From: an uncultured Eubacteriales bacterium
GTDB taxonomy: Bacteria; Bacillota; Clostridia; Lachnospirales; Lachnospiraceae
Assembly (NCBI GenBank): GCA_949283695.1
Contig: CASDTX010000015.1
Span: 1-64,000 of the forward strand
Direction of reading: 5' to 3'
DNA length: 64,000 nucleotides
In this document: positions 1 through 8,794 of the stretch, piece after piece
Position numbering within the stretch: the stretch's first letter is position 1
Layout of the letters: every line of letters begins with the position of its first letter
Translations under genes and position numbers: made by a program
Notes under the pieces: generated by a model
Told to the model about the DNA's origin: nothing
Database searches by the model: none
The model's input: the letters and a program-made list of their open reading frames with translations, nothing else

Positions 1-159
1 ATCAGTTCAGCCATCTGCGTCAGAAGACGGATTTATGCTTGCATAAGAATCCGGCGGCTGACAGGCAGATGTGCTGAGCGCCAGTTCATGAGCAAAGGAG
101 CGGCGCAGCCGCAATTAGCACGTCAGTGCGGCTTTGCGAATAGCACGGGCTGAACTGAT
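1..159 (+). repeat. Structured dispersed repeat, copy 1
   Basis: A 159-bp element that recurs at 8636-8794 with about 10 substitutions and no indels (about 94% identity). Its ends form a perfect 12-bp inverted repeat (1-12 with 148-159). Inside are nested stems: 13-18 with 65-70, 19-23 with 58-62, a bulged 10-bp hairpin at 28-53, 71-75 with 117-121, a 5-bp hairpin at 100-112, and 126-129 with 143-146. No ORF is conserved in it. It lies just downstream of dtd. The window begins exactly at its first base, so the left flank is unseen. It could be a MITE-like element, a structured RNA, or both. Confidence 0.85.
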
Positions 160-177
160 ACAATTCACGTATCAGTT
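153..177 (-). terminator. Hairpin overlapping the dtd stop codon
   Basis: AACTGATA at 153-160 is complementary to TATCAGTT at 170-177, with a 9-nt loop. The right arm overlaps the dtd stop codon and the left arm is the end of the structured repeat. It sits where the operon should end but has no clear U-tract, so termination is an inference. Confidence 0.4.
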
Positions 178-622
178 ACAATTCCTCCGAGTCCAGCAGA
201 ATGGTAAAAGGTCCGTCATTTACCAGCCGGACATCCATCTCCGCGCCGAACCGGCCGGTCTGGACTTCCGGCACTGCCTTCCTGCATTCGCTGACAATAT
301 ATTCATACAGTGCATTTGCATGCTCCGGAGAACCTGCTTTTATGAAGCTTGGTCTGTTGCCCTTCCTGCAGTTCGCATACAGAGTGAACTGAGACACAAG
401 CAATAAGCTTCCGTCCACATCTGCCAGGGACAGATTCGTCTTCCCCTGTTCATCCTCAAAGATCCTCAGGCCGATCATCTTCCGGATCATCTTGTCCGCA
501 GCCGCCTGATCATCACTGTCTGTCACGCCAATCAGCACAAGATAGCCTTTTCCGATCTGGCCGATGATTTCTTCTCCTACTTTCACATCTGCTTCTTTTA
601 CACGCTGTATTACAAATCTCAT
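176..622 (-). CDS. dtd: D-aminoacyl-tRNA deacylase
   Basis: Hydrolyses D-amino acids wrongly attached to tRNA; a small cytoplasmic homodimer in known members. The 148-residue protein starts at MRFVIQRV and carries the family signatures SQFTLYA, then RPSF, and the C-terminal GPFTILL motif. The start at 622 is preferred because it matches family N-termini; a longer in-frame extension has no homology-like features. The start overlaps the stop of the CPBP gene in an ATGA, so translation is probably coupled. It is the last gene of the cysE-led operon. Confidence 0.95.
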
Positions 623-1485
623 ACTCTCTGATTCTCCTGTCTGTCTTCTCTTTTCTTTTCCCCGATGCCAAAATGGATCATAACGAGCACAACCACAAAC
701 AGCGGCACGCACATCAGCGCCAGCATACCGAACAGAATCTCTGGAAGGAAGTTTGATTCCAGTTCCGCCAGAACCGTACCAAACAGATTAAACAGGCCGT
801 GAGCTGCCATGGGAATCAGAAGACTCTGGTATCTGTGGGCGAGATATCCGAACAGGAATCCCACCAGTGCTGTATAGATGCCCTGAATAAAGTTCATATG
901 ATAGATTCCGAAGCAGACCGCCTGAATCAGGTTGGCTGCCAGGAAACAGGCACCGCCCTTTCTGAGGTACCGATAGAGCAGCCCCCGGAAAGCCACTTCT
1001 TCCACCAGAGGCGGAAGAATCAGGGTGCTGATGACCCATGTAAATGAATACTGGGTAAGTCCGGACATTTCCACCAGTTCTGCGTAGTCTGCGAGAGCGG
1101 ATGGAAACAGCATGCCTACCATGCCCATGATCAGAGAGGTGACATGCTGTGTGGCGAGCATCAGCAGAACAAGCCACACAAAGGTCATGGGATGGATCCG
1201 TTCTGTCTGGCGTCTGAGGACGTTCCTCATGCCGTTCCGCTCTGCGAAAGCGAAATAATACCACAGAAGCACAACGGATCCCGGAATCAGATAGATCAGC
1301 AGGGAATAGAAGTTCAGGTGATCCATCAGAAACTCCATGGACCACATCACACCCTGATACCCCCTGATCAGCATCCCCCCGATGGCTGCTCCTGCGCTTA
1401 ATACGGCGGCACTTCCATTGAACAGCAGCATCAGAATTCCAAATACAAGCAGTGCCAGCACATAATTCGTATATTTTTTCATCAT
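619..1485 (-). CDS. CPBP family intramembrane metalloprotease
   Basis: A membrane protein of 288 residues with about eight hydrophobic segments. The motif [13 protein letters not shown] in the middle matches the EExxxR signature of CPBP (CAAX protease and bacteriocin-processing) proteins. A downstream [12 protein letters not shown] segment carries the expected metal-binding histidine. Substrates of these proteins in Clostridia are generally unknown. The start at MMKK follows an AGGAG site, 12 bp after the sigH stop. It overlaps dtd by 4 bp. Its place between sigH and dtd is probably operonic convenience; a link to sporulation is not shown. Confidence 0.85.
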
Positions 1486-1497
1486 TTTTCTCCTGTA

Positions 1498-2118
1498 TCA
1501 GTGATCCTTGCGGAGCATTTTCTCCGCTTTGCCCTTAATCCTCTGGAGCGCGTTGTCAACCGACTTCGGGCTCTTGTCAAGCAGCTCCGCAATCTTCCGG
1601 TAATCTGTGCCCATAAGATGGAGGTACAGTACATGATTTTCAAGCGGGCTTAAACTGTCCTTCAACTGTTCTACAAACGCTTCTGTATATTCTTTCCCGA
1701 AATAAAGCGCTTCCGGATCATTGTCCTGCACGGGCCCGATCGTATCAATCAGCGCCATCCTTCTCCCGTCGTGCTCATCCTCACTTTCCTCATAGAGGGA
1801 GATGTAGGAATTCAGGGGCAGATGTTTCTTCCGCTTTGACGCCTCGATAGCACTGTACATCTGACGCGATACGCACAGATCCGCAAAACTTGCAAACGAA
1901 GCCCCCTGTGCGCTGTCATAATCCCGCACCGCCTTGATCAGCCCGATCATTCCCTCCTGGATCAGATCATCATTCTCGCCGCCCAGAAGATACATTGCAC
2001 GCGCTTTCTTTCTTACCATGGTTTTATATTTATCCATGATATAGTCCATGATATCCCCGTCTCCGGCTCTCAGTTCTTTGATTAACTGTTCATCCGTCAT
2101 CCTGTCATATCTGCTCAT
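1498..2118 (-). CDS. sigH: RNA polymerase sigma-H factor (early sporulation)
   Basis: A 206-residue sigma-70 family protein. Region 2 is visible as the stretch from LIKELRAGD through DLIQEGMIGLIKAV, and region 4 as the helix-turn-helix near YRKIAELLDKSPKSVDNALQRIKGK. In Bacillus and Clostridia SigH drives early sporulation genes, and the rlmB-sigH neighbourhood is the conserved Firmicute arrangement, which supports sigH over other sigma factors. It is transcribed after rlmB in the operon that starts at the cysteine T-box. Confidence 0.93.
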   Translation of the reverse strand: MSRYDRMTDEQLIKELRAGDGDIMDYIMDKYKTMVRKKARAMYLLGGENDDLIQEGMIGLIKAVRDYDSAQGASFASFADLCVSRQMYSAIEASKRKKHLPLNSYISLYEESEDEHDGRRMALIDTIGPVQDNDPEALYFGKEYTEAFVEQLKDSLSPLENHVLYLHLMGTDYRKIAELLDKSPKSVDNALQRIKGKAEKMLRKDH

Positions 2119-2160
2119 TCTCTCACCCGCTCGCCCGTTCTCCTGTTCTCGCCGCGCGTC

Positions 2161-7613: not shown

Positions 7614-7811
7614 TTACAGATATGGTAAAACCTTCTTCATGTTCTTTACGTTTGTTGCGTCTGTAATCGTTGACTGTCTGAGATTTCTCTTTCTCTTGGT
7701 TGACTTCTTTGTTAAGATATGGCTCTTATAGGCTTTATTTCTTTTCAGTTTCCCTGTACCTGTTTTTTTGAAGCGCTTTGCTGCCGCTCTATTTGTTTTG
7801 ATCTTTGGCAT
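7614..7811 (-). CDS. rpmI: 50S ribosomal protein L35
   Basis: A 65-residue basic protein beginning [18 protein letters not shown], diagnostic for L35. The start at 7811 follows an AGGAGG-type site; an upstream in-frame ATG at 7862 is not used by the family. It sits between infC and rplT. Confidence 0.98.
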
Positions 7812-7869
7812 GATAATTTCCTCCTTTATTGTGCTGCCTTGCCGGACATTCATCCCGGACATATATTCC

Positions 7870-8376
7870 CTAACGCTTTTCAGTTAAAACCATGCTCATG
7901 GCTCTTCCTTCCATCTTCGCCGGCTTCTCTACCGTCGCGACGTCTGCAAGAGTCTGTGCGAAATCATCAAGGATATGCCTGCTCTGCTGAACATGAGCCA
8001 TCTCTCTTCCGCGGAAACGGAGTGTCACCTTCACTTTATTTCCCTTTGAAAGAAACTTTCTTGCATTGTTTACTTTCGTATTCAGGTCATTCGTGTCGAT
8101 GTTTGGTGAGAGACGCACTTCTTTGATTTCGACCGTCTTCTGTTTCTTCCTTGCCTCTTTCTCCTTCCGGGTCTGCTCATACTTAAACTTACCATAATCG
8201 ATGATCTTGCAGACCGGCGGTTTAGCCGTAGGCGCGATCTTCACCAGATCAAGCTCTGCCTCCTGAGCGATTTTCATAGCCTCACGGGCTGACATGATAC
8301 CTAACTGTTCCCCATTCGAACCGATCAGCCGGATCTCACGGTCCCTGATCTGCTCGTTAATCATTAAATCGCTAAT
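7870..8376 (-). CDS. infC: Translation initiation factor IF-3, AUU start
   Basis: IF-3 with the N-terminal domain ([24 protein letters not shown]) and the C-terminal 30S-binding domain ([13 protein letters not shown]). An ATG at 8364 gives 164 residues, but its distance to GGAGG (8386-8390) is 21 nt. An in-frame ATT at 8374-8376 lies 9 nt from that site and adds the residues I/M-S-D-L. AUU is the classic infC start used for autoregulation, so 8376 is the likely start. The choice rests on spacing and family precedent. Confidence 0.93.
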
Positions 8377-8390
8377 TGTCGTATACCTCC

Positions 8391-8600
8391 GTCACATGAA
8401 TTCCTTCAAGGTTTCTTCTGCGAAACACAAAAAAACGAGTGAATATCATATCCACCCGACAAGTCAATAAAAGCGTCCGTACGAAACGGAAGCCGATACA
8501 TCAATATCAGACCAGTAGTCACCCGATTGTGCTATGGTGAGAGTGGATACTCTACTTTGTTTTTTGCTTCACGCAGAGAATAATTTACCACATCTCTCTC
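8391..8600 (-). promoter_or_regulatory. infC-rpmI-rplT leader with attenuator
   Basis: The transcribed leader holds a transcription terminator: a CGGGTG...CACTCG stem (8436-8458) followed by seven U residues (8429-8435), about 50 nt before the infC start. Further upstream are segments able to form other pairings. In Bacillus this position holds the L20-binding leader; whether this sequence belongs to that family could not be tested here. With the repeat and symporter promoter, this accounts for most of the 540-bp gap. Confidence 0.7.
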
Positions 8601-8635
8601 CTGCTGTCAACCACTAACAGAAACATTTTTCTGAT

Positions 8636-8794
8636 ATCAGTTCATCCATCTGCGTCAGAAGACGGATTTATGCTTGCATAAGAATCCGGCGGCTGACAGG
8701 CAGATGTGCTGAGCGCCTGTTCATGAGCAAAGAAGCGGTGCAGCCGCAGTTAGCACGTCTGTGCGGCTTTGCGAATGGCGCGGGATGAACTGTT
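8636..8794 (+). repeat. Structured dispersed repeat, copy 2
   Basis: Second copy of the element at 1-159, same orientation, between the divergent infC leader and the symporter promoter. Relative to copy 1, position 10 changes G to T and its partner at position 150 changes C to A, so the terminal stem is kept. Positions 104 and 145 change so that C-G and T-A pairs become T-G pairs. The outermost two base pairs are lost. The G-U logic favours folding of the plus-strand sequence. Confidence 0.85.

Follow-up and report, generated by a model that had tools for sequence, protein, structure and literature searches.

Miniature inverted-repeat transposable elements (MITEs), for example MITEPsy1, are under 300 bp long and have inverted ends as in an insertion sequence and a target duplication (PMC3189936). 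Pneumococcal BOX repeats are described as short, intergenic and mobile, with extensive secondary structure, and as being moved by others (PMC3049150). Insertion sequences of the IS66 family have 8-bp direct repeats and ends starting GTAAGCG (PMC11946415), and the Clostridiales-1 motif (RF01699 of Rfam) is listed by Weinberg et al. 2010 (PMC2864571) with the table entry y/n/n, its mobility going unmentioned in the parts of that paper available to us. In the open-access literature we found neither RF01699 treated as a repeat nor a comparable IS66 MITE. Here we describe a repeat carried twice by a stretch of 64,000 nucleotides (the window; positions 1 to 64,000, forward strand, of contig CASDTX010000015.1, assembly GCA_949283695.1) from an uncultured Eubacteriales bacterium of the Lachnospiraceae. 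The contig, C15, is one of 66 in a 2.9-Mb genome (G000), which syntenic loci put near Mediterraneibacter. The repeat is a MITE of Lachnospiraceae, that is a non-autonomous transposable element, 162-163 bp in length, with a compensated fold that is conserved across genera.

Like other MITEs, the element is shorter than 300 bp, has its ends in common with an insertion sequence and is flanked by a target duplication; unlike them, its interior is an old covarying fold common to families with other ends, and not a deleted insertion sequence. It is likewise short, intergenic, structured and mobile in the manner of BOX, which differs, going by its published description, in host family, sequence and ends. 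BOX repeats are modular in build; in the present element the left module is a hairpin and the right one is branched.

Mobility is seen in the ends of the element and in what flanks them. Terminal inverted repeats are present at both ends (GTAWCAGTTCAGCC / GGCTGAACTGWTAC), and the bounds of copies with flanks read GTATCAGTTCAGCC...GGCTGAACTG(A/T)TAC, so that the element extends by 2 bp at either end (GT...AC) beyond the limits first drawn for it. The end pattern GTAWCAGTTCAS occurs at 45 sites in G000, against a single site for a reversed-pattern control. Target-site duplications, which the preliminary description had suggested looking for, are found and are 8 bp long: among 75 unique copies that are complete and flanked on both sides, with end shifts of up to 2 permitted, 16 have a perfect duplication and 24 match at 7/8 or better, against 0.05% and 2.3% when left flanks are paired with the right flanks of other copies. 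Within G000 the duplication is perfect in 8/15 copies and stands at 7/8 in two more, the second window copy being one of the latter. Three loci (L043, L048 and L049) have both flanks of that copy without the element, and an element match was found in only one (L112) of 80 syntenic loci. Reduced forms carry duplications too, as read by eye: the left module alone (L033, tctgtagg on either side), the right module alone (L034, 7/8), a 44-bp form (L030, 7/8) and a form of about 40 bp (L249, tacttgca, 8/8). Since full-length, left-only, right-only and 42-44 bp forms all bear such ends, the ends suffice for movement. The element has no transposase gene, and the one listed open reading frame (ORF) overlapping the first window copy (134-406) begins at its right end and exits.

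Being short, hairpin-rich, dispersed and intergenic, the element might be taken for a REP/REPIN relative that depends on a single-strand Y1/RAYT transposase. However, Y1 transposition is not known to make target duplications, and together with the 8-bp duplications and a DDE insertion sequence of the IS66 family that has the same ends (below), this leaves us giving such an origin almost no credence, though no search was aimed at RAYT genes.

The element is numerous in its own genome and occurs elsewhere in the family. G000 has 40 matches at E<=0.001, the window copies among them, which in 2.9 Mb is a repeat beyond chance; a search of the genome and its relatives for further copies had been suggested, and DNA-level matches occur in 29/36 other genomes of the same genus and in 0/24 genomes from other families. 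Our model of the element, R1, applied with strict filters, matches 19/150 genomes of the family, its own included, and class-wide 2/196, both inside the family. Plasmids gave no match and phages a single weak, partial one (82/159 bases). Ten of the 30 G000 loci inspected sit at a contig end within the element, which explains why assemblies of these gut genomes break. At some loci (L265:1501-2144, L122:1185-1660, L035:930-1251, L121:307-628 and L139) 2 to 4 elements follow one another head to tail. Some of these arrays have common linkers, and that of L265 lies between a TATAAT-like box and a ribosome-binding site with ATG. At L128/L129 and L209/L230, and at L172/L175, different species of the genus apparently share an insertion site, with matching upstream sequence.

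The fold is real, and consists of two modules: one is a hairpin with a GCUUGC apex, the other is branched and includes a tandem G.A step. It is kept by compensatory changes over at least 18 genera. In an alignment of 75 copies, with a 47-pair structure, 97.0% of cells are paired and 28 pairs are changed on both sides, giving 182 double-change cells, where shuffles give 31.9 and slid versions of the structure 33-61; the 3523 cells comprise 3367 Watson-Crick, 50 G-U, 30 A-C and 76 other. A second alignment comprises 96 model-fitted matches, among them 17 loci outside the genus but within the family, and favours the structure by the way it was built; in it 97.1% of cells pair, double changes occur at 41/47 pairs, and double-change cells number 490 against 98.0 (shuffles) and 75-104 (slid versions). 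The tandem G.A step is retained in 81/89 rows. For the GCAAAG/CTTTGC helix a hand-set register replaced that of RNAalifold. The nested structured element proposed from the two window copies is thus borne out by the covariation in these family alignments. Young copies show 21 substitution events at 94 stem sites and 20 at 65 loop sites (p=0.27; 26 rows, in which halves at contig ends may represent a single copy twice), so that selection on individual young copies is not apparent.

The preliminary description placed the two copies correctly at 1-159 and 8636-8794, and its count of about ten differences is exactly 10/159 on comparison (positions 10, 83, 98, 104, 114, 125, 142, 145, 150 and 158), with zero indels. 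The left modules are identical. The joint change of 10 (G>T) and 150 (C>A) is real and falls on a pair of the family structure, and the change at 104 (C>T), facing G108, makes a U-G pair on the plus strand, as had been pointed out. The second G-U example does not hold: position 145 pairs with C79 in the family structure, as C-G in copy 2 and as a C.A mismatch in copy 1, where A142 also stands opposite C82.

As to what moves the element, a PF03050 profile search of G000 returned one IS66 transposase (75.5 bits, cut-off 23.1). The candidate partner is an insertion sequence of 1,820 bp with a single 485-aa ORF (G000:C32:149-1968), bounded by GTAACAGTTCAGCC / GTAACAGTTCACCC and by the duplication cgaaaaaa (8/8); it shares a 14-bp end with the element, with GTAA-type ends (GTAACAGTTCA) that do not extend to the longer consensus GTAAGCG. 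Among the GTAWCAGTTCAS sites of G000 it alone offers intact ends around an intact element as large as an insertion sequence; the one further long pair is an element copy split by an IS4-type element. That locus (L246, G000:C62:43600-45900) has a 438-aa transposase of the IS4 family, with GGGCTGAAC duplicated. A second IS66 of the genus (L243, in genome G014) is bounded by related ends, GTTACTGTTCA, and by gccggaat as its 8-bp duplication. The element resembles the IS66 family in its GTAA start and 8-bp duplication, and differs from it in lacking a transposase, in its ends (GTAACAGTTC, not GTAAGCG) and in an interior unrelated to IS66. From these sequence comparisons we infer that an IS66-family transposase, cutting the ends that the two have in common, probably moves the element in trans.

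We therefore favour, with a probability of about 0.72, a reading of the whole in which a MITE with GTAWCAGTTCAGCC ends and an 8-bp duplication is moved in trans by IS66, and its fold is kept on the spreading lineage, likely through a plus-strand transcript. An IS66-family transposase would act in trans on the ends, insertion duplicating 8 bp. Selection would act on the lineage that goes on spreading, since the fold is kept over genera while single young copies drift freely, and most likely via a folded plus-strand transcript, which might make insertions tolerable to adjoining genes or last longer as RNA.

Several observations weigh against this. The partner scores 145.6 with the NCBIfam IS66 equivalog NF033517, below the cut-off of 180; it is found in one genome only, and its protein matches 3/41 genomes, its own included, the others being distant or fragments. 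PF03050 matches occur in 6/19 element-rich genomes, none with a matching end pair. Copies in relatives mostly have no remaining duplication, and as only 8/60 are perfect, most of them are old or altered. The plus-strand bias of the pairs is modest across the family and absent from young copies, and the element shows no orientation bias towards neighbouring genes (both detailed below).

That no IS66 with these ends was found in the element-rich relatives, whose draft genomes are incomplete, would suit the same MITE being moved by some other, unseen transposase with the ends and duplication length of IS66. We consider this unlikely, given that the only intact end pair of insertion-sequence size in G000 belongs to IS66 and that the IS66 of L243 has related ends and an 8-bp duplication.

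The role of the fold is less certain than its existence. If a plus-strand RNA is selected, G-U pairs should be tolerated and A-C pairs not. In the first alignment G-U exceeds A-C by 50 to 30 cells (p=0.033; types 29 v 19, p=0.19), and in the non-redundant second alignment (79 rows, 17/96 having been dropped as short or >=92% alike), which is fitted to a plus-strand RNA model, by 77 to 35 (p=9e-5; types 37 v 22, p=0.067). The cells are not independent events in either count. Among young copies of G000 the count is 5 v 6 events. The earlier argument from G-U pairs is thus weak: it holds at about 2:1 across the family, and fails in young copies and at position 145. Alternatively, the fold may be kept as a DNA palindrome, a hairpin or protein site on either strand that serves movement or maintenance, with no RNA role. 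The equal counts in young copies fit this alternative, as do the near absence of standard pairs other than Watson-Crick, the unbiased orientation to genes, and folding that is about equally good on the two strands (z against shuffles of -5.42 plus and -5.21 minus for copy 1, -3.41 plus and -4.40 minus for copy 2). The family-wide G-U excess speaks against it, as do the G.A step and branched architecture, which are typical of RNA, and the 42-44 bp end-only forms, which moved without any fold. We see a DNA-only role as possible but doubtful, and lean somewhat towards a plus-strand transcript. Of the earlier suggestion of a "mobile RNA-like repeat or a non-autonomous element", the dispersed non-autonomous mobile element (duplications against control, empty sites) and the covarying nested fold stand, and plus-strand RNA as the selected target is the weaker part.

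Gene context was assessed with crude gene calls (longest ORFs). With both neighbours called, orientations were 13 ++, 21 --, 20 -+ and 7 +-, with 16 more having one neighbour missing (type A). Divergent neighbours exceed convergent ones (p=0.019). A sense bias to genes, considered because many copies by eye seemed flanked by a -10 box and a start codon, was rejected (++ 13 v -- 21, p=0.23). Such copies in sense, the strong covariation and matches to RF01699, typed 'Gene; sRNA' in Rfam, would accord with a family of trans-acting or regulatory RNA genes multiplied by recombination and not by transposition. Spread by simple recombination is nevertheless refuted by inverted ends with 8-bp or 7-bp duplications well above controls, and the empty sites, the truncated forms with duplications and the missing sense bias further make such a gene family very improbable.

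No named family had been recognised for the element, which needs correction: its core matches RF01699, below the gathering cut-off of 48 bits. At a lax threshold G000 copies score 18-26 bits (E 0.027-4.3), elements with these ends in other genomes up to 39.7 bits (E 3e-7, L172), and in other genera 6/7 loci give a match, with E of 2e-6 to 3e-5 in three cases and with up to 42 bits. These matches are on the same strand and span 1-166/166 (one of two in L035 over a shorter stretch). Reciprocally, R1 recovers RF01699 loci and agrees with RF01699 in place and strand (best E 1.1e-6), with 23/35 at E<=0.01 among the matches listed and one weak match (E 0.16) on the opposite strand. As the scores lie under the cut-off, the element is related to RF01699 and not a member of it. 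Both have the GCUUGC apex and the AUGAGCA...UGCGAAU helix and are dispersed and end-bounded, whereas RF01699 has other ends (GATGYCRGGGTCAAAAG), a 7-bp duplication and an extra 3' hairpin.

RF01699 exceeds its cut-off in 18/61 genomes. G027, a one-contig genome, has at least 38 scored matches (38 of 152 candidates were scored), and the 20 best copies bear GATGYCRGGGTCAAAAG ends and a 7-bp duplication that is perfect in 14/20, against 4.7% in the control. Three of the 20 have a right flank in common and so are non-independent, and the targets are AT-rich. Allowing up to 2 mismatches, these ends occur 94 times as left and 87 times as right ends in G027; 61 starts have an end inside 4 kb, and 50 of those span 190-199 bp. 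Because the G027 copies bear inverted ends and a duplication, the RF01699 'RNA' looks mobile too. One 1.5-kb end pair and other stretches inspected in G027 held no transposase with these ends, an IS1634 element beside two copies has ends of its own, and no partner was found. At L296 (G027:C1:936000-939400) a stretch of about 200 bases that includes a short element is present in two direct copies, with an IS1634-family transposase between them. RF01699-like elements with further ends occur in other families of the order (L165 in G052 and L164 in G057; GGAAAGTC...GACTTTCC and TGATAC...GTATCA).

Tentatively, the covarying core may be a functional, or ribonucleoprotein-forming, RNA that two or more unrelated transposition systems have acquired, with Clostridiales-1 as one branch. 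Equally tentatively, one of these systems would be IS66-like and make 8-bp duplications, another would have different ends and 7-bp duplications, and the core would be a 'mobile RNA gene' in borrowed ends. With the present findings an orphan catalogued 'RNA' becomes a testable mobile-element question, and they caution that covariation alone can promote transposable elements into RNA catalogues. The question raised is why a gene-less transposon keeps a compensatory fold across a bacterial family, and the same fold with different ends.

Table 1. Features of the element copies in the window.
Feature	Position	Strand	Basis
Copy 1, without initial GT; ends ...GGCTGAACTGATAC	1..161	+	sequence and genome matches
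Terminal stem, 5' side; pairs with 150-155; part of inverted end	5..10	+	family structure
Copy 1 left module: long bulged hairpin, apex TATGCTTGCATA	12..71	+	family structure
Copy 1 right module: outer stem, tandem G.A step (TGAG/CGAA), stem GCAAAG/CTTTGC, two inner hairpins	78..146	+	
Terminal stem, 3' side	150..155	+	family structure
Copy 1 right target duplication, aattcacg	162..169	.	sequence
Copy 2 left target duplication, atttttct; 7/8 against right side	8625..8632	.	
Copy 2	8634..8795	+	model R1 match C15:8634-8795
Copy 2 left module	8647..8706	+	
Copy 2 right module	8713..8781	+	
Copy 2 right target duplication, atttttcc	8795..8802	.	
Lone end-like remnant GTGACAGTTCAGCCATT adjoining copy 2	8810..8826	+	by eye

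Copy 1 is without its first 2 bases and left flank because the window starts at base 1 of contig C15. At its end, contig C22 (L015) also has aattcacg ahead of GT and the element start, and this is likely the missing left side of copy 1, the join between the contigs being inferred. Abutting copy 1, window positions 169-179 (GTATCAGTTAC) resemble by eye two joined end fragments, perhaps the footprint of a lost copy. The neighbours of copy 2 are presumably, judging from their ORF sequences, infC (minus) and a sodium-dependent transporter-like gene (plus). Upstream of infC, at about 8423-8563 (-), lies a sequence like the L20 leader (RF00558; 26.2 bits, below the cut-off of 58.7). Rfam matches over cut-off in the window are ordinary: a T-box leader at 5673-5901 (-), a TPP riboswitch at 58902-59010 (+) and a tRNA at 20195-20274 (-).

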